Assembly (NCBI GenBank): GCA_013151015.1
Contig: JAADJA010000225.1
Coordinates: 1-59,510, forward strand
Direction: 5' to 3'
Length of the DNA stretch: 59,510 nucleotides
Origin: Chlorobiota bacterium
GTDB lineage: Bacteria; Bacteroidota; Bacteroidia; Bacteroidales; JAADJA01
Shown here: positions 25,763-40,397 of the stretch, in pieces
Position numbering within the stretch: position 1 is the stretch's first letter
Layout: each line of letters begins with the position of its first letter
The notes under the pieces: generated by a model
Seen by the model: only the letters and a program-made list of their open reading frames with translations
Told to the model about the DNA's origin: nothing
Database searches by the model: none
Translations under genes and position numbers: made by a program

Positions 25763-26946
25763 CTACTCTATGATTTCGGTTACCTGACCAGCACCAACTG
25801 TACGGCCACCTTCACGAATAGCAAACCTCAGGTTTTTAGCCATTGCAATTTCAGTGATCAATTTCACTTCAATTGTAAGGTTATCACCAGGCATGATCAT
25901 TTCAACACCTTCTGGTAAAATAATCTCCCCGGTAACATCAGTTGTCCTGAAATAGAACTGAGGACGATAGTTGTTATGGAATGGGGTATGCCTTCCACCT
26001 TCTTCTTTCTTCAGGATATAAACCTCAGCTTTAAAATGGGTATGGGGTGTAATTGAACCAGGATGTGCGATTACCATTCCCCTTGTAATTTCGTTTTTAT
26101 CAATTCCCCTCAACAACAAACCTGCGTTGTCACCAGCTTCTCCCCTATCAAGGATTTTACGGAACATCTCAACTCCTGTACAAACTTAAGTTTTTCGGCG
26201 CCCAATCCGATAATATCAACTGCTTCACCAACTTTGATTACACCAGATTCGATCCTACCTGTTGCAACTGTTCCACGACCCGTAATTGAGAATACATCCT
26301 CAACAGGCATAAGGAACGGTTTATCAACATCACGCTCAGGTAAAGGAATCCAAGTATCACAAGCTTCCATCAGTTCATGGATTTGAGGAACCCATTTTGC
26401 TTCCTGGTTAAGTGCACCAAGAGCAGAACCTTGAATTATAGGGGTATTGTCGCCATCAAATTCGTAGAAACTCAACAATTCCCTGATTTCCATGTCAACG
26501 AGTTCAAGAAGTTCTTCATCGTCAACCATGTCAACCTTGTTCATGAAAACAACGATCTTAGGCACACCTACCTGACGTGCAAGAAGGATATGTTCCCTGG
26601 TTTGGGGCATAGGGCCATCAGTTGCAGCAACCACAAGAATGGCACCGTCCATCTGGGCAGCACCTGTTACCATGTTCTTCACATAGTCAGCGTGACCAGG
26701 ACAGTCAACGTGTGCATAATGCCTGTTTTTAGTTTCATACTCAACGTGGGCAGTATTAATTGTAATACCTCTTTCTTTTTCTTCAGGGGCATTATCAATT
26801 TCGTCAAACGACTTGAATGTCGCAAGACCTTCATCCTGCAGGTTTAATGTAATAGCAGCGGTCAATGTGGTTTTACCGTGGTCAACGTGACCAATTGTAC
26901 CAATATTAACGTGCGGTTTGGAACGATCAAATTTTTCTTTTGCCAT
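25763..26946 (-). pseudogene. tuf: Elongation factor Tu, frameshifted (apparent 1-nt deletion near 26185-26188)
   Basis: N-terminal ORF 26110-26946 ([29 protein letters not shown]...GLGAEKLK) continues in another frame as [27 protein letters not shown]... to 25763; together ~394 aa EF-Tu. Confidence 0.93.
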
Positions 26947-31928: not shown

Positions 31929-34190
31929 ATGAAAACAAATCGCAGACAGTTTATAAAAATCTCGACACTCGGTACAGGAGCCATGGCATTAGGTTTAAGT
32001 TCGCTGAACTTCAACGGGATAAATGCAGCCTATGCAGCCGAAAAAAACGAAGCGGTAAGTGACGAAGACATGACACCTTACCCAACCTTTTGTGAGGTTT
32101 GCTTCTGGAAATGTGCCGCCTGGACCTATGTTGACAAAAAAGGGGAGATAAGGAAAATCATTGGCAATAAAGAAGACCCACATTGCAACGGCAGGTTATG
32201 CCCAAGGGGAACAGGCGGAATAGGCATGTACCACGATGAAGACCGTTTGAAAACACCATTGATAAGGGAAACCAAAGAAGATGGCACACAATACTACCGG
32301 GAGGCAAGCTGGGAAGAAGCCCTTGATCTGATCGCAAATAAAATGTCGAAGATCAAAAAGGAACATGGCCCCGAATGTGTCGCCCTGTTTTCACATGGCA
32401 CCGGGGGCAAACTCATGGGACATTTAGTAAAAGCCTTTGGTTCCCCAAATATTTCCGCACCATCTTTTGCACAATGCCGCGGCCCTCGCGAAGTTGCATT
32501 TACGGCAACTTACGGTGAAGATGTCCAATCACCGGAAAGAACCGATATAAGGGACACCAAATGCCTGGTACTTATCGGATCACACATTGGCGAAAACATG
32601 CACAACGGCCAAATACAGGAAATGTCGGATGCCATTGATAATGGGGCGACAATCATTACCGTTGATCCCAGGTTTTCAACGGCCGCTTCCCACTCAAAAT
32701 ATTGGCTGCCCATTAAGCCCGCAACTGACCTTGCTTTACTTCTTGCCTGGACACATGTTCTTATCGAAGAAGAATTATACGACAAAGAATATATCAAGAA
32801 ATACGCATTTGGTTTTGATGAACTCAAAGAACATGTAAAAGACAAAACCCCTGAATGGGCCTTTGGGATCACCACCATCGAACCTGAGATAATAAGGAGA
32901 ACGGCACGTGAAATGGCCTATGCCTCCCCTGCTGTTATTGTACACCCTGGAAGGCATGTTACCTGGTACGGTGACGATACCCAACGGTCAAGGGCAATTG
33001 CTATTCTCAATGCATTGTTGGGTTCCTGGGGAAGAAGGGGCGGGTTTTACGTTCCTGAAAAAGTCCATCTCCCAAAATACCCTTCACCGCCTTATCCCAA
33101 ACCTTCCCGAACCTGGAAAGATGCTTATCCTCCGGGAAAATACAATCTTGTTCACGAAGTGCTGTCAACAGGGATTTGCGATGCAACCATCCCAAACCCG
33201 GACATGGATTGCCAATTGAGGGCTTGGATTGTTTATGGGACCAACCTGCTCGCTTCATTGCCTGACCAAAAGAAAACACTCGAAGCAATCGACAACCTGG
33301 AATTCCTGGTCGTTATCGATACCATGCCCATGGACATTACGGCCTATGCCGATGTGGTCCTTCCCGAATGTACCTATCTGGAACGTTATGATTTTGTAAG
33401 GACTTCGCCCCATCGAGAACCGTTTTTAGCACTTCGGATGCCAGCGGCCAAACCGAAATATGACTCCAAACCCAATTGGTGGATAGCCAAGCAATTGGGA
33501 AGCCGTTTGGGACTGGATGAATATTTTAAATGGGATTCGATTGAGGAAGTATTGGACTGGCAATTGAAACACGTGGGTTCATCCCTTGAGGAAATGAAAC
33601 GCATTGGTGTGAAGAAGTTTGACAGGGAATATGACGATCTTTATTTCCTGCAAAACCTTGAAGATTTTGAATTCAACACCAATACAGGAAAGATAGAACT
33701 TTACTCTACCGAACTTGATTATGAAGGTTTTGATCCTTTGCCCAATTACACTTCACATCCAGAGCCCCCTGAAGGATTTTACCGGTTGAATTATGGCCGC
33801 GCACCCATGCATACATTCAGTCGTACGACAAATAACCCCAACCTCGATGATTTAATGGACGAGAACAAATTATGGGTCAATCCAAGGGTTGCGGAAATAT
33901 GGGGAATCGAAAATGGCCAAAAGGTTTGGTTGAAGAACCAGGATGATGTTGTTTCCTCCTTCCCGATAAAAGTTCGCGTTACCGAACGTATCCGTTGGGA
34001 TTCGGTTTACATGGTCCATGGTTTCGGCCACAAAGAAAGGCGATTGTCGCGTTCCTATGGAAAGGGCGCAAGCGATTCGGAACTGGTGACACATGTTATG
34101 ACCGACCCTGTGATGGGAGGTACCGGGATGAGAGGGAATTTTGTTACATTTTTATTAGAGAACCCTAAAAAAGAGGAGGTTGAGTCATGA
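31929..34190 (+). CDS. Tat-exported molybdopterin oxidoreductase, PsrA/PhsA-like catalytic subunit
   Basis: Tat motif NRRQFIKIS; 4Fe-4S CxxCxxxC...C; putative Mo-Cys ligand region SAPSFAQCRGPREVAF; adjacent FeS and NrfD subunits. Confidence 0.9.
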   Translation: MKTNRRQFIKISTLGTGAMALGLSSLNFNGINAAYAAEKNEAVSDEDMTPYPTFCEVCFWKCAAWTYVDKKGEIRKIIGNKEDPHCNGRLCPRGTGGIGMYHDEDRLKTPLIRETKEDGTQYYREASWEEALDLIANKMSKIKKEHGPECVALFSHGTGGKLMGHLVKAFGSPNISAPSFAQCRGPREVAFTATYGEDVQSPERTDIRDTKCLVLIGSHIGENMHNGQIQEMSDAIDNGATIITVDPRFSTAASHSKYWLPIKPATDLALLLAWTHVLIEEELYDKEYIKKYAFGFDELKEHVKDKTPEWAFGITTIEPEIIRRTAREMAYASPAVIVHPGRHVTWYGDDTQRSRAIAILNALLGSWGRRGGFYVPEKVHLPKYPSPPYPKPSRTWKDAYPPGKYNLVHEVLSTGICDATIPNPDMDCQLRAWIVYGTNLLASLPDQKKTLEAIDNLEFLVVIDTMPMDITAYADVVLPECTYLERYDFVRTSPHREPFLALRMPAAKPKYDSKPNWWIAKQLGSRLGLDEYFKWDSIEEVLDWQLKHVGSSLEEMKRIGVKKFDREYDDLYFLQNLEDFEFNTNTGKIELYSTELDYEGFDPLPNYTSHPEPPEGFYRLNYGRAPMHTFSRTTNNPNLDDLMDENKLWVNPRVAEIWGIENGQKVWLKNQDDVVSSFPIKVRVTERIRWDSVYMVHGFGHKERRLSRSYGKGASDSELVTHVMTDPVMGGTGMRGNFVTFLLENPKKEEVES

Positions 34191-34720
34191 GATATGCAAT
34201 GGCTATTGACACGAAGAAATGTGTAGGCTGTGGTGACTGTGTGGTTGCCTGCCAAACAGAAAACAATGTCCCTCACGGATATTGCAGGGACTGGATCGTT
34301 GAAAATGTGAGCGGAAGTTATCCAAACGTGGAAATCGAATTGCGCTCGGAACGTTGCAACCATTGCGATAATGCCCCTTGCGTAAGATGCTGCCCAACCG
34401 GGGCGAGCCATATTGTGGAGGGCGGAATTGTTATGGTAACCCACAACGAATGTATCGGTTGCGGCGCCTGTATTGAATCATGCCCTTATGATGCACGTTA
34501 TTCCCATCCCGAAGGATATGTTGACAAATGCACTTTCTGCAAACATAGGCTCGACAAGGGACAAAATCCGGCCTGCGTGGAAGTTTGCCCAACGAAATGT
34601 TTGCATTTTGGCGACCTCGACGATCCCAACAGTGATGTTTCCAAAGCACTGAAGGACAGGAAATGGAAGGTATTGGCCCCCGAAGCCGGAACAAAACCTC
34701 AGTTATATTTCCTGACTTGA
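34187..34720 (+). CDS. 4Fe-4S ferredoxin-type electron transfer subunit (PsrB-like)
   Basis: Multiple CxxCxxCxxxC motifs (CVGCGDCVVAC, CNHCDNAPCVRCCP, CIGCGACIESCPYDA); 4-nt overlap with preceding CDS. Confidence 0.95.
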   Translation: MRYAMAIDTKKCVGCGDCVVACQTENNVPHGYCRDWIVENVSGSYPNVEIELRSERCNHCDNAPCVRCCPTGASHIVEGGIVMVTHNECIGCGACIESCPYDARYSHPEGYVDKCTFCKHRLDKGQNPACVEVCPTKCLHFGDLDDPNSDVSKALKDRKWKVLAPEAGTKPQLYFLT

Positions 34721-34847: not shown

Positions 34848-35789
34848 ATGAAAGAAGAATTATTTGTAAGCGGACGCAATATCCCCAACATAGATCCTTA
34901 TCTGCACATCTGGCACTGGCAAATCCCATTGTATCTGTTCCTGGGCGGCCTTGCTGCCGGAATATTGTTTTTTGCGGGGTATTTTGTTGTGATGCAAAAA
35001 GAAAAGGATATGCAGGCAAGCGTAAAGTGGGCACCTTTGCTCGCCCCGTTTGCCCTGGCCCTCGGACTATTTGCTTTGTTCCTCGACCTGAAACACCAAC
35101 TCTACTTCTGGAGGTTATATACCACGGTAAGGTTTACATCGCCCATGTCGTGGGGTGCCTGGACATTGATGTTCATAACACCCCTTTCAGTGATATGGGT
35201 AGCTTCGTACATGAAAGAGATGTTCCCCAGGTGGGACTGGAAATTTGAAATCCTGAACAAGTTCGAGGCATTTGCCATCAAATACAGGAAAACTATGGCC
35301 TGGGCAATCATGGTCCTTGCCATTATCCTTGGGGTTTATACAGGGATTTTATTATCTGCCTTTAATGCCAGGCCATTGTGGAACACATCCATTTTAGGGC
35401 CTCTATTTTTGGTTTCAGGGCTTTCGACCGGACTGGCCTTCACAATGATGATATCGAAGAGCAAATACGAAAGAAAAGTTTTGGGCCGTATTGATTTAAT
35501 ATTGATTACAGTTGAGCTTTTCCTCATTACACATATGTTCATGGGGTTCCTTGCAGGATCGGCAGCAAAAATCGAAGCGGCAGAACTATTCCTCGGAGGT
35601 GATTTCACGGTTACTTTCTGGGCATTTGTTGTAGTACTTGGGCTCATTTTCCCTGCCATAATGGAAATCCTTGAACTAAGGGGCTATCATGTGCCCATCT
35701 GGATCCCTTCAACTTTTATCCTTATAGGAGGTTTGGTTTTCAGGTTTGTAATGGTAGAAGCCGGTCAGATAACACGATTTTTATATTGA
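34848..35789 (+). CDS. NrfD/PsrC-like integral membrane quinone-interacting subunit
   Basis: Multi-TM; WHWQIPLYLFLGGLAAGILFFAGY typical of NrfD/PsrC. Confidence 0.92.
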   Translation: MKEELFVSGRNIPNIDPYLHIWHWQIPLYLFLGGLAAGILFFAGYFVVMQKEKDMQASVKWAPLLAPFALALGLFALFLDLKHQLYFWRLYTTVRFTSPMSWGAWTLMFITPLSVIWVASYMKEMFPRWDWKFEILNKFEAFAIKYRKTMAWAIMVLAIILGVYTGILLSAFNARPLWNTSILGPLFLVSGLSTGLAFTMMISKSKYERKVLGRIDLILITVELFLITHMFMGFLAGSAAKIEAAELFLGGDFTVTFWAFVVVLGLIFPAIMEILELRGYHVPIWIPSTFILIGGLVFRFVMVEAGQITRFLY

Positions 35790-35919: not shown

Positions 35920-36453
35920 ATGAAAAAGCATAAAATAAAAAATTACCCGCATTACATCAACCCTTATTTTGGAGGTTTGTTATTGGGCATACTTATTATA
36001 ATTACAGTTTACATTACCGGACGTGGACTGGGTGCCAGTGGAGCTGTAAAAAGTGCGGTCGTAACATCGGTTGATGTGGTATCGTCGAGCCATGCCGAAG
36101 AGAGTGCCTTTTATAGCAAATTCATAAGCGACGACCATTCCCCCATGTATAACTGGCTGGTTTTTGAATCCTTTGGGATATTTATCGGGGGGTTATTGTC
36201 AGGTGCCATATTTGGCAGGATAAAAAAATTCAGGGTCGAACACTCACCAAAAATAACAAGTAAGACAAGATTGATCGGAGCGGCGGTCGGGGGCATCCTT
36301 TTTGGGTTTGGAAGCCAATTTGGAAGAGGTTGCACAAGTGGGGCAGCATTGAGCGGAACCGCCACATTTTCATTCGGTGGGATGATTGTTATGTTTGGGA
36401 TATTTGGGACGGGTTATGCCGTCGCCTATTTTTTCAGGAAACTTTGGATTTAA
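35920..36453 (+). CDS. YeeE/YedE (DUF395) half-size sulfur transporter-like protein, first partner
   Basis: GFGSQFGRGCTSGAALSGTATFSFGGMIVMFGIFGTGY. Confidence 0.87.
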   Translation: MKKHKIKNYPHYINPYFGGLLLGILIIITVYITGRGLGASGAVKSAVVTSVDVVSSSHAEESAFYSKFISDDHSPMYNWLVFESFGIFIGGLLSGAIFGRIKKFRVEHSPKITSKTRLIGAAVGGILFGFGSQFGRGCTSGAALSGTATFSFGGMIVMFGIFGTGYAVAYFFRKLWI

Positions 36454-36487: not shown

Positions 36488-37090
36488 ATGGGACCTTTAA
36501 TTCCTAATGGCATATTGACCGGAAACTGGGACTTCGTAATAGCCCTGCTTCTCGGTATTGCTTTTGGCTTTGTGCTGGAAGCTTCAGGCTTTTCTTCTTC
36601 AAGAAACCTTGCCGGAGTTTTTTATGGATATAACTTTGTTGTGCTCCGAGTATTCTTTACCGCAGTAATTGTAGCGATGGTAGGCCTTCTCTATTTTGAT
36701 TACTTCGGTTGGCTCGAAATGGACAAAATATTTATTCTGCCAACCTATCTCACACCTATGATAACAGGAAGTGTTATAATGGGGTTTGGGTTTATAATAG
36801 GGGGGTTTTGCCCGGGCACCAGCTATACGGCCATTGCCATTGGCAAACTCGATGCCCTTGTATTTACAGGTGGGCTTTTCCTTGGAATCTTTTTGTTTTC
36901 CGAGGCTTTTCCCCTATTTCAGGATTTTTATTATAGCGGGGACATGGGTTCGCCAACAATAACAGATATGCTTGGCATTTCGGCGCAATGGATTGCGTTT
37001 GCATTTGTGGTTATCGCCCTTGCAGCTTTCTGGATAACCTGGGTCATTGAAAAACGAGTTAGAAAAAACATTACACCCTATAAATTCTAA
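36488..37090 (+). CDS. YeeE/YedE (DUF395) half-size sulfur transporter-like protein, second partner
   Basis: GFGFIIGGFCPGTSYTAIAIGKLDALVFTGGLFLGIFLFSE. Confidence 0.87.
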   Translation: MGPLIPNGILTGNWDFVIALLLGIAFGFVLEASGFSSSRNLAGVFYGYNFVVLRVFFTAVIVAMVGLLYFDYFGWLEMDKIFILPTYLTPMITGSVIMGFGFIIGGFCPGTSYTAIAIGKLDALVFTGGLFLGIFLFSEAFPLFQDFYYSGDMGSPTITDMLGISAQWIAFAFVVIALAAFWITWVIEKRVRKNITPYKF

Positions 37091-37095
37091 GAATC

Positions 37096-37713
37096 ATGAA
37101 CAAAAATTATATTATCCTCACTGCTTTGATGATTGTTCTTGCCGGTGGATTGTTAATAGTTCCTGAACGACAAAAGTACCAGCAAATAGACCCGGATGAA
37201 CTATTATGGGAGATTATCCAGCCCACACGCTACGTAAGTACCGATAAGGTGGCCCAGTTAATCATTGAGGGTGACCCAAGCCTCGAACTGGTCGATGTAA
37301 GGCCTGCTGCAGATTATGAAAAATTTTCACTGCCCAAATCCATCAATATCCCTCTCGATAGTTTGCTGCAAGAATCCTATCAGGACTATCTTGGAATAGA
37401 TGGGATGAAAGTTTTGTTTTTCTCAAATGACGATATCAAGGCCGATCAGGCATGGGTACTTGCCAAAAGACTTGGGTACGACAATATATATGTCATGAAA
37501 GGGGGTCTTAACTGTTGGATAAGAACGGTAATCCAACCAAAAAAACCTTCAACTGACTCTCCTTCAACAGAGTTCGCCTTGTATGATTTCAGGAAAGGCG
37601 CCCAGATGTATTTTACCGGTGCCAAAACAGAAACATCCGGGAAGTCATCAAACAAAAAAGCGGTAAAGATTCAAAGGAAAAAGAAAAAAACAGCTGCTTC
37701 GGGCGGTTGTTAA
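37096..37713 (+). CDS. Membrane-anchored degenerate rhodanese-like protein with C-terminal RKKKKTAASGGC
   Basis: N-terminal TM; rhodanese fold residues (LELVDVRPAADYEKFSLPKSINIPLDSL...YDNIYVMKGGLNCW); active-site loop VLFFSNDDIKADQ lacks Cys. Confidence 0.85.
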   Translation: MNKNYIILTALMIVLAGGLLIVPERQKYQQIDPDELLWEIIQPTRYVSTDKVAQLIIEGDPSLELVDVRPAADYEKFSLPKSINIPLDSLLQESYQDYLGIDGMKVLFFSNDDIKADQAWVLAKRLGYDNIYVMKGGLNCWIRTVIQPKKPSTDSPSTEFALYDFRKGAQMYFTGAKTETSGKSSNKKAVKIQRKKKKTAASGGC

Positions 37714-37800
37714 GGAAACAAGGGTTCAAGGAATTCGAATCATACTTCTGACACGTTTTGCAAGAAAAAACAAAATCCAAAGTTCAAAAAGACAAACATT

Positions 37801-38442
37801 ATGCATGTACATGAATTAAACCCGAAAAAATCAATTATAACCCTTTCCATATTTTTTATCATCATCGTGGTTGGGTTCATAACTTTGAAAACCCCTTGGT
37901 TAACCTATAAACAAGTTCCTGAGCAAACTTTACGGATGATTTCGGAAAAGGGAAATTGCCTTTATCCATATGAGCTGGCCAGCTTTGTGGCCGGAACCGA
38001 TGACAATATCGTGTTAATTGACATCAGGGACAAGTTTACTTACAGCAGAGGCCATATACCGGGGGCGATCAACATTTCGGCCTATGATCTCACGAGGAAA
38101 GAAGAAATCAAACAACTCAAGGAGTTTAAAGATAAAGGTGTTTCTGTTGTCCTCTATGGCGATAATCAATTACAGGCAAATGGCCCCTGGATGCTTTTTA
38201 GGCAAATTGGTTATGATAACGTAAAAGTACTGGCCGGTGGATACGACTATTACAAAATGCACAAAGATAACCTGGCCGATACTGAAAATGACGATTCTTA
38301 TTTTAAGGGAACGGCAGACTTTGATTATGCAAAAGTTGCAGGAAGTACAGTTTCAACTTCAACAACCACGAACACAGATGCTAAAAAACCTGTTACGGTC
38401 CGCCGGAAGAAGAAAAAGGCAGCTGCATCAGGAGGATGCTAA
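37801..38442 (+). CDS. Membrane-anchored degenerate rhodanese-like protein with C-terminal RKKKKAAASGGC
   Basis: N-terminal TM; IVLIDIRDKFTYSRGHIPGAINISAYDL...YDNVKVLAGGYDYY; active-site loop VVLYGDNQLQA lacks Cys. Confidence 0.87.
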   Translation: MHVHELNPKKSIITLSIFFIIIVVGFITLKTPWLTYKQVPEQTLRMISEKGNCLYPYELASFVAGTDDNIVLIDIRDKFTYSRGHIPGAINISAYDLTRKEEIKQLKEFKDKGVSVVLYGDNQLQANGPWMLFRQIGYDNVKVLAGGYDYYKMHKDNLADTENDDSYFKGTADFDYAKVAGSTVSTSTTTNTDAKKPVTVRRKKKKAAASGGC

Positions 38443-38779: not shown

Positions 38780-39553
38780 ATGAAAAACGAAAATGGAAAT
38801 ATTAAAATTTTAGATAAGGCTAAAGCCATCCTGATTACGGTTATGGTTTTATTTCTATTTCAATCAATTTCCTTTGCACAGTACGACAGACAAAAATATA
38901 AGTGGTCCAACCTATTAAAACATTGGTCAATAGGAACATCTATTGGTCAAACTTCCTTTTATGGCGATGTAAGTTTATACGACAATGAACTTTCGGACAA
39001 ACTGTCAAAAGAAGGTTCCTGGTCTAATGGATTTAAACTTGCAAGACAGTTGACCCCGGTGATCGGCCTTCAGGGACAATTGCTTTTGGGAAAACTCAAA
39101 GGAAAGAATTCAGTATCCAATTTCGAAGCCAACATCAAGCAGGTATCGGTGAATTTCACATTAAATTTTGTAAACCTGCTTTTACCTGGAAACGATTCAC
39201 GCTTTTTTATTTTGGCAAAAATCGGCTTGGGTGAATATGTTTTCGACTCAAGGTTGATGTTCAATGACCCCAATAAGGCAGATATTACCATTAACCCTAA
39301 AACACCTGAGTTTTTGTTCTTGTTGGGCCCGGCAATCTATTACAAAATCAGCAACTCTTTTGATGTAAATGCTGATTTAGATGTACAGTGGGCCAACAAT
39401 GACAAACTGGACGGAACAACCAACAACAATAAAGATGATGATTATTACACTTTTTTATCGGTTGGGGTAACTTATAAAATAAACAACATAAACCGGTCAG
39501 CAAGGGGATTTCGCCATACTGGGGGAAGATTCTCATTGATAAAACGAAGATAG
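38780..39553 (+). CDS. Outer-membrane beta-barrel-like protein, paralog 1
   Basis: Signal peptide; alternating beta-strand pattern; GTSIGQTSFYGDVSLYDNELSDKLSKE motif shared with next CDS. Confidence 0.7.
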   Translation: MKNENGNIKILDKAKAILITVMVLFLFQSISFAQYDRQKYKWSNLLKHWSIGTSIGQTSFYGDVSLYDNELSDKLSKEGSWSNGFKLARQLTPVIGLQGQLLLGKLKGKNSVSNFEANIKQVSVNFTLNFVNLLLPGNDSRFFILAKIGLGEYVFDSRLMFNDPNKADITINPKTPEFLFLLGPAIYYKISNSFDVNADLDVQWANNDKLDGTTNNNKDDDYYTFLSVGVTYKINNINRSARGFRHTGGRFSLIKRR

Positions 39554-39632: not shown

Positions 39633-40397
39633 GTGAAAAAGCAAATCAAGGTATTACTCGCAGTAGTTGTCTTTACGACACTTGTTATTCCTGATACTAC
39701 ATCGGCCCAGGGTTGGGGAGGAAGATGGAAGCCTGGCTTTTGGGACATGTGGTCAATAAACATCAATGCAGGCCAAACATCCTTTTTTGGTGATTTAAGC
39801 CTTTATGACTCTGATATTATGGGAAAGCTCACCAACGAAAGCGGTTTGGCATACGGAGGTATTTTTTCCAAGCATTTTAGCGACAAGTTCAGTATGGGTG
39901 GGCAATTATTGTTTGGCAAGTTAAAAGGGGAGAATTCAAGTGCAACTTTTAATGCCGATGTAATGGAATATAACTTTCATGGTAAGGTAAACCTGGTAAA
40001 CCTAATTTTTCCCGAAAACTTAACAAACCTTGATTTTACCATGTACGCAGGTATCGGGCAATTCCGGTTTAAAAGTATCCAGGTAAACAAAAAGGAGGGA
40101 ACGACTTCCATAGAAGACACCGGCACGCCCGAATTTGTTTACTTTTTTGGAATGGGGCTGGATTATAAGATAACCGACAGGCTTGGGGTGAATATGGACA
40201 TGTCGATCCGCCAGGCCCAAAACGACAAGCTCGATGACCTAAAGAAAAACGATAATAATGATTATTATAGCTACATAAGTGTAGGGGTAACCTATTACAT
40301 CGAAAGCCTGTTTGGCGGAGGTGGCAAGAAAAAAGGCGGAAGCTTTGGAAGAAGCAGCCGTGGAGGTGGAAGGATGCCCATGATGAGAAGGCGGTAA
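39633..40397 (+). CDS. Outer-membrane beta-barrel-like protein, paralog 2, with Gly/Arg-rich basic C-terminal tail (GTG start)
   Basis: INAGQTSFFGDLSLYDSDIMGKLTNESG; tail GGGGKKKGGSFGRSSRGGGRMPMMRRR. Confidence 0.7.
   Translation: MKKQIKVLLAVVVFTTLVIPDTTSAQGWGGRWKPGFWDMWSININAGQTSFFGDLSLYDSDIMGKLTNESGLAYGGIFSKHFSDKFSMGGQLLFGKLKGENSSATFNADVMEYNFHGKVNLVNLIFPENLTNLDFTMYAGIGQFRFKSIQVNKKEGTTSIEDTGTPEFVYFFGMGLDYKITDRLGVNMDMSIRQAQNDKLDDLKKNDNNDYYSYISVGVTYYIESLFGGGGKKKGGSFGRSSRGGGRMPMMRRR

Follow-up and report, generated by a model that had tools for sequence, protein, structure and literature searches.

In Wolinella succinogenes, sulfur is carried by the rhodanese Sud on a Cys of the catalytic loop. 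It is a periplasmic sulfurtransferase able to hold a chain of polysulfide (PMC3397948). In SoxY, sulfur substrates are bound by the Cys of a C-terminal GGCGG motif (PMC6067878), and the passage of sulfur from SoxY to the cysteines of the YeeE-type channel SoxT has been judged conceivable, as a conjecture only (PMC11582611). For YeeE-YeeD, a cysteine relay through the channel has been described, to which the partner protein supplies a further Cys, and C22 of YeeE faces the cytoplasmic YeeD (PMC11073785). PmpAB is composed of two half-size YeeE proteins with a single Cys each, matching C91 and C293 (PMC11582611). Additionally, the passages on the Psr operon in the Desulfurivibrio dismutans study describe a triple-rhodanese sulfurtransferase, for which a lipoprotein nature was predicted (PMC12142623). 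No earlier description of tailed rhodaneses or of YeeE-rhodanese fusions was found in the open-access literature that was searched.

The window, that is, the whole stretch of 59,510 nucleotides analysed here, carries a seven-gene cluster, psrA-psrB-psrC-yeeE1-yeeE2-rhd1-rhd2, with two rhodanese-like genes at its end. The genes of the putative respiratory reductase are the following:

31929..34190, + strand: psrA/phsA-like molybdopterin oxidoreductase, 753 aa, with a TAT-like signal (Pfam Molybdopterin, 2.7e-42)
34187..34720, + strand: psrB-like 4Fe-4S protein, 177 aa (Fer4_11, 3.1e-22)
34848..35789, + strand: psrC/NrfD-like quinone-interacting membrane subunit, 313 aa (NrfD, 3.4e-48)

The best-scoring NCBIfam model for PsrA was PhsA, whose 476.5 bits lie under the cut-off of 694. 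The cluster was found again in related loci, within the reach of the contigs or fetched stretches and in some cases with a single rhodanese, and the psrA/phsA-like gene was conserved in it; the linkage of the rhodaneses to psrABC and YeeE genes, proposed for checking in homologues by the first-pass annotation, is therefore a recurrent one. Neither tusA nor dsrE was present among the window neighbours, and the locus is not the YTD cluster (yeeE, tusA and dsrE) regarded as a marker of sulfur disproportionation.

Some observations concern the surroundings of the cluster. After rhd2, two adjacent homologous proteins (38780-39553 and 39633-40397) with 36% mutual identity and signal-like N-termini are encoded, homologues of which also follow the cluster in the close relatives L002-L006, L008-L012 and L031; they may be outer-membrane proteins belonging to this system. 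At positions 3757-3759 of L031, a neighbour genome of 98-99% identity, an in-frame TAA interrupts psrA where the window protein reads through, which reflects a sequencing error or a pseudogene. On the reverse strand of the window (25763-26946), tuf, encoding EF-Tu, is read in two overlapping frames (278 and 134 aa); this frameshift may have arisen in the assembly of the draft genome. A MerR regulator gene lies upstream in locus L122 and also ahead of psrA in L125.

The two rhodanese-like proteins, Rhd1 and Rhd2, and the features discussed below were located as follows:

37096..37713, + strand: rhd1, transmembrane (TM)-anchored pseudo-rhodanese, 205 aa (PF00581, 1.7e-14; rhodanese matches in Foldseek)
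37108..37164, + strand: N-terminal TM helix of Rhd1, residues 5-23, N-in/C-out (hydropathy and charge; AF2 helix 3-20)
37423-37425, + strand: Ser110 (TCA) of Rhd1 at the place of the catalytic Cys (column of 58 orthologues)
37624..37710, + strand: disordered tail of Rhd1, residues 177-205, ending RKKKKTAASGGC (pLDDT <50 over 177-205)
37801..38442, + strand: rhd2, TM-anchored pseudo-rhodanese, 213 aa (PF00581, 8.4e-19; AF2 mean pLDDT 79)
37831..37887, + strand: N-terminal TM helix of Rhd2, residues 11-29 (sequence; AF2 helix 8-30)
38158-38160, + strand: Gly120 (GGC) of Rhd2 at the place of the catalytic Cys (column of 53 orthologues)
38344..38439, + strand: low-confidence tail of Rhd2, residues 182-213, ending RKKKKAAASGGC (pLDDT mostly <60)

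PF00581 matches, AF2 models (mean pLDDT of 80 for Rhd1) and Foldseek agree on a rhodanese fold for both proteins, neither of which has the catalytic Cys of the rhodanese active-site loop. In the AlphaFold models, Ser110 of Rhd1 lies between strand 105-109 and helix 113-125, which is the canonical catalytic place, and Gly120 of Rhd2 is equivalently positioned. The case that would have undermined the first-pass annotation, a catalytic Cys elsewhere in the loop, was looked for in the alignment, the sequences and the AF2 models of Rhd1 and Rhd2, and none was found; its description of two adjacent membrane-anchored rhodaneses devoid of the active-site Cys holds for both reading frames. The former active-site loop is acidic, with a mean net charge of -0.9 to -1.8 versus +1.1 in ordinary rhodaneses. 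Each protein contains two Cys (140 and 205 in Rhd1, 53 and 213 in Rhd2), of which only the terminal ones are conserved; since no internal Cys was conserved among the orthologues of either protein, the terminal Cys is indeed the only common one, as had been noted. The tail extends for about 30 residues from the last conserved domain residue (27-34 in Rhd1, 31-37 in Rhd2).

As for topology, the YeeE2 loops alternate in charge and its C-terminus is rich in Lys/Arg, which argues for a cytoplasmic C-terminus, so that the next TM helix, that of Rhd1, would lead out of the cytoplasm. Three Rhd2 orthologues (L014, L019 and L209) bear a lipobox in place of the TM helix. Given this orientation and these lipoboxes, the rhodanese domain and the tail are most likely periplasmic.

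The GGC ends of Rhd1 and Rhd2 are not due to chance. The terminal GGC was conserved in every orthologue, both for Rhd1 (G203, G204 and C205; 58/58) and for Rhd2 (G211, G212 and C213; 53/53), and the loss of the catalytic Cys accompanied it almost throughout, a co-occurrence that the first-pass annotation had proposed looking for. The catalytic column of Rhd1 was occupied by Ser in 50 orthologues, Gly in five and Cys in only three of the 58, and that of Rhd2 by Gly in 32, Ala in 14, Tyr, Cys and His in two each and Ser in one of the 53. Among 30 rhodanese matches of five genomes, whose catalytic residue was assigned by alignment, all seven GC-tailed proteins were devoid of the catalytic Cys, which was present in 22 of the 23 untailed ones. 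Where an extra residue followed the tail Cys (GGCE, GGCD, GGCG or GGCS), it was common to both copies whenever both were seen; the exact GGCGG end was not found among them, GGCG occurring in L030. A genome-wide C-terminal sorting signal was ruled out by GGC-stop scans: the host genome (4.32 Mb) has 33 such sites, and rhd1 and rhd2 were the only ORFs of more than 68 aa ending in this way, whereas of the 21 sites in a complete related genome, only those of the two homologues and of one 70-codon stop-to-stop frame ended an ORF of such length.

A few orthologues combine a catalytic Cys with the tail, and in genome G060 the end VPVKKKQVGGGCE was common to three different proteins. Additional rhodaneses with an intact catalytic Cys and a GGC or GGCE end were observed at L209 (1730-2824), L203 (87-1199) and L042 (1-462), the one in L209 being a lipoprotein-like tandem that ends with the same VPVKKKQVGGGCE as its Rhd1 and Rhd2; such proteins may load the arms. 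The coexistence of catalytic Cys and tail in some proteins indicates that the tail does not have to stand in for the catalytic Cys and is to be seen as a module of the system, not simply as a substitute. The loss of the active-site Cys, from which the earlier idea of a repurposed rhodanese domain had started, is widespread but not absolute, given the few orthologues and the tandem rhodaneses that keep both.

Both proteins of the window end in RKKKK(T/A)AASGGC, with 11 of the last 12 residues identical and only three codons identical, in line with what the first-pass annotation had observed. The same relationship was recovered across genomes. Over tail residues -12 to -4, the paralogues of one genome shared 7.0 of nine residues, against 3.8 of nine between different genomes. 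In 40 dereplicated genomes, each tail was compared with that of its own paralogue and with those of the nearest relative. The own paralogue was closer than the relative's paralogous tail in 29 cases and further in five (P 1.4e-5), and closer even than the relative's orthologous tail in 27 cases and further in seven (P 9e-5). None of 10,000 permutations reached the observed mean, and the match weakened upstream of about position -16. Shared composition was discarded as an explanation, since shuffling within tails gave an identity of 0.23 (maximum 0.31) versus 0.76 observed. Gene conversion was likewise ruled out: identical residues were encoded by identical codons 235 times versus 232.6 expected (176 versus 178.8 after dereplication), an agreement at chance level and no better than codon usage predicts. 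A recent duplication was excluded by the tree, in which Rhd1 and the YeeE fusions lie opposite Rhd2 and a group ending in EGC, with support of 95/95; the duplication is thus old and the tail match is not a remnant of recent common origin. With codons at chance and paralogues of old date, the claim of selection on the tail rather than recent duplication proved well founded. By these sequence comparisons, the Rhd1 and Rhd2 tails are co-evolving at the peptide level, the most natural reason being one common docking partner.

The systematic search, which covered Bacteroidota, returned Rhd1 profile matches at E 1e-15 in 52 of 396 genomes. A protein ending in GGC, GGCx or EGC was found in all 29 newly fetched loci, a set that had been listed by tail. 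In 20 more regions taken without a tail filter, nearly all closed homologues were tailed, with one MGC variant and two exceptions, a fusion ending in DGGVKR and a tailless second copy. Three layouts were recognized. In one of them, psrABC, yeeE1 and yeeE2 are followed by rhd1, with or without rhd2, and in another the same five genes are accompanied by a single rhodanese ending in KKKKREGC or similar. The remaining layout, found in several families, occurs without psrABC and combines yeeE1 with an octaheme cytochrome of the tetrathionate-reductase family, a cytochrome b561 and a fused YeeE2-Rhd1 protein that has a GGC end (for example, L122, 9154-11390); YeeE2 and Rhd1 were joined on one polypeptide in more than 10 genomes. 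The cluster was also observed, with Bacteroidota-like sequences, on contigs labelled Neomarinimicrobiota/Fidelibacterota (L038, a near neighbour, and L040), which may reflect horizontal transfer or mis-binning. Since the reductase is exchanged while split YeeE and tail remain constant, the tail is tied primarily to YeeE and secondarily to the reductase. Judging by these gene layouts, the constant partner of the tailed rhodaneses is the split YeeE pair and not the reductase. The earlier proposal of the Mo-enzyme and YeeE as joint partners was thus upheld for YeeE at the level of gene linkage, whereas the Mo-enzyme gives way to the octaheme cytochrome and cytochrome b in other Bacteroidota.

The channel features in the window are the following:

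35920..36453, + strand: yeeE1, C-terminal half of a split YeeE/YedE (PmpA-type; Sulf_transp, 7.5e-21, profile 177-308)
36331-36333, + strand: Cys138 of YeeE1, equivalent to C293 of S. thermophila YeeE (Cys in 70/70; alignment to 8k1r)
36488..37090, + strand: yeeE2, N-terminal half of the split YeeE (PmpB-type; Sulf_transp, 2.6e-14, profile 4-159)
36809-36811, + strand: Cys108 of YeeE2, corresponding to C91 of S. thermophila YeeE (Cys in 71/71; profile alignment to 6leo/8j4c)
36593-36595, + strand: Ser36 of YeeE2 at the place of C22 (profile alignment to 6leo/8j4c)

Cys138 and Cys108 are the only invariant Cys of YeeE1 and YeeE2, so that the invariant Cys of the four proteins amount to two channel Cys and two tail Cys. 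At the place of C22, none of the 71 YeeE2 sequences had a Cys, and Ser, Thr or Gly was found instead. TusA was not detected in the complete genome G232, nor in G113 and G419, all of which carry the system; therefore, a hand-over to TusA in the cytoplasm is probably not obligatory.

These findings are best accommodated by a model, to which a probability of about 60% is given, in which Rhd1 and Rhd2 would be membrane-tethered periplasmic sulfur carriers whose tail Cys acts as a SoxY-like swinging thiol for YeeE and the reductase. The rhodanese fold, having given up its own catalytic Cys, would provide the base for an arm, and the working thiol would be the Cys that ends this flexible arm of some 30 residues. 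By analogy with SoxY, whose role it would take on a rhodanese base, the tail Cys could take up sulfane sulfur as polysulfide, thiosulfate sulfur or a persulfide, offer it to the periplasmic mouth of the PmpAB-type YeeE1-YeeE2 channel, and either give sulfur to the cluster's respiratory sulfur reductase or receive it from there, this enzyme being PsrABC here and the octaheme cytochrome/cytochrome b pair elsewhere. The tails would co-evolve because the two arms share one docking site. In this model, the periplasmic location, the persulfide chemistry, the direction of sulfur flow and the docking partner of the tails are inferred. The catalytic-Cys orthologues, the active-looking tailed tandem rhodaneses, the DGGVKR fusion and the tailless second copy speak against the carrier model, as do the acidity of the former active-site loop, to which the model assigns no role, and the genomes in which TusA was not detected. 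A more far-reaching version, possible but rather doubtful, would see in the system a convergent Bacteroidota counterpart of SoxY, working without TusA or YeeD, in which the Lys-rich GGC arms of the emptied rhodaneses serve as a periplasmic "cysteine zero" for the split channel, the acidic, degenerate rhodanese pocket parks the basic persulfide arm, and the arm passes sulfur on to the Cys of the channel as well as to respiratory reductases that are interchangeable; that the acidic former active-site loop could park the arm is a speculation.

The same anatomy could serve other functions. A structural disulfide, in which the pair of tail Cys would lock Rhd1 to Rhd2, or homodimers, beside YeeE without carrying sulfur, would agree with the tail match within genomes and with the presence of a single conserved Cys in each Rhd protein. 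However, the systems with a single tail (the EGC group, the single-copy loci L128 and L133, and the fusions) are equally strict in it, a disulfide would not require matching Lys-rich flanks in the two chains, and one genome has three proteins sharing one tail, which makes this explanation unlikely. The co-evolution of the entire tail beyond the Cys, together with the end common to three different G060 proteins, would suit instead a docking or attachment tag, a Lys-rich GGC end read by a partner or a modifying enzyme, with a thiol that carries no sulfur; in a variant, the tag would anchor the protein to the membrane or mark its C-terminus for lipidation of the polybasic-Cys type. Nevertheless, TM or lipoprotein anchors are already present, the Cys is invariant while other tag residues vary, and one residue can stand behind the Cys. 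Moreover, GGC-stop is confined to the system, which makes a general modifying enzyme unlikely, and the cluster contains no modifying enzyme. Such a tag is accordingly considered rather improbable.

Sequence hardly separates persulfide carriers from thiol reductants, and a tail Cys that acts on PsrA or YeeE to resolve persulfides or disulfides, carrying no sulfur between the two, would display the same anatomy. With a single conserved Cys per protein, however, re-reduction would need another partner, and no conserved thioredoxin or Dsb gene was seen in the cluster, so that a reductant role has little probability. The least probable of these alternatives is the binding of a thiophilic metal or of selenium or tellurium species by the terminal Cys-carboxylate and the arm. 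The weak NCBIfam matches to putative selenium transporters, which are among the YeeE/YedE relatives, and the weak matches of the rhodanese domain to the TsoB and ExtH models point in this direction, but the linked genes encode octaheme cytochromes and reductases of the polysulfide/thiosulfate type, a Gly-Gly-Cys context is typical of sulfur carriers, and the residue tolerated behind the Cys also argues against a terminal Cys-carboxylate ligand.

For the preferred carrier model, the hand-over of sulfane sulfur from a periplasmic enzyme to a YeeE-type channel is of particular relevance, having only been conjectured in the SoxT work (PMC11582611). Since carrier and channel half are fused in some genomes and the putative thiol is one mutable C-terminal residue, this hand-over becomes directly testable. 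Additionally, a [G/E]GC-tailed rhodanese adjoining a split YeeE provides a signature for sulfur-respiring Bacteroidota.

Compared with the known systems, Rhd1 and Rhd2 share with SoxY a conserved Cys on a flexible Gly-rich C-terminal arm (111 proteins), and they co-occur with a split YeeE as SoxY does with the YeeE-type SoxT. Unlike SoxY, they match only rhodaneses in Pfam, NCBIfam and PDB, their arm is a Lys-rich GGC(x) or EGC on a membrane-anchored protein rather than GGCGG, and SoxZ, SoxXA and SoxB are not encoded near rhd1 and rhd2. With Sud (PDB 1qxn), which the Rhd1 profile matches at E 0.0014, they have in common the predicted extracytoplasmic location of a psr-linked rhodanese, whereas the loop Cys is lost in Rhd1 and Rhd2 and the tail Cys is kept. 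The D. dismutans Psr operon likewise unites Psr with an extracytoplasmic rhodanese, but that organism belongs to Desulfobacterota, its YeeE genes lie elsewhere, and the passages on the operon mention neither a tail nor a loss of the catalytic Cys (PMC12142623). YeeE1 and YeeE2 resemble PmpAB in that each is a Sulf_transp half with a single Cys, at the place of C293 and C91, respectively, although the halves are longer here (177 and 200 aa) and occur as partners of tailed pseudo-rhodaneses or in fusion with them. As in YeeE-YeeD (TsuA-TsuB), a Cys relay with a partner Cys is proposed; however, the partner Cys is here predicted to be periplasmic and not cytoplasmic, C22 is missing, and a YeeD/TusA gene is absent from the cluster. 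By this comparison, Rhd1 and Rhd2 would be swinging-thiol carriers of sulfur for which a pseudo-rhodanese provides the base.
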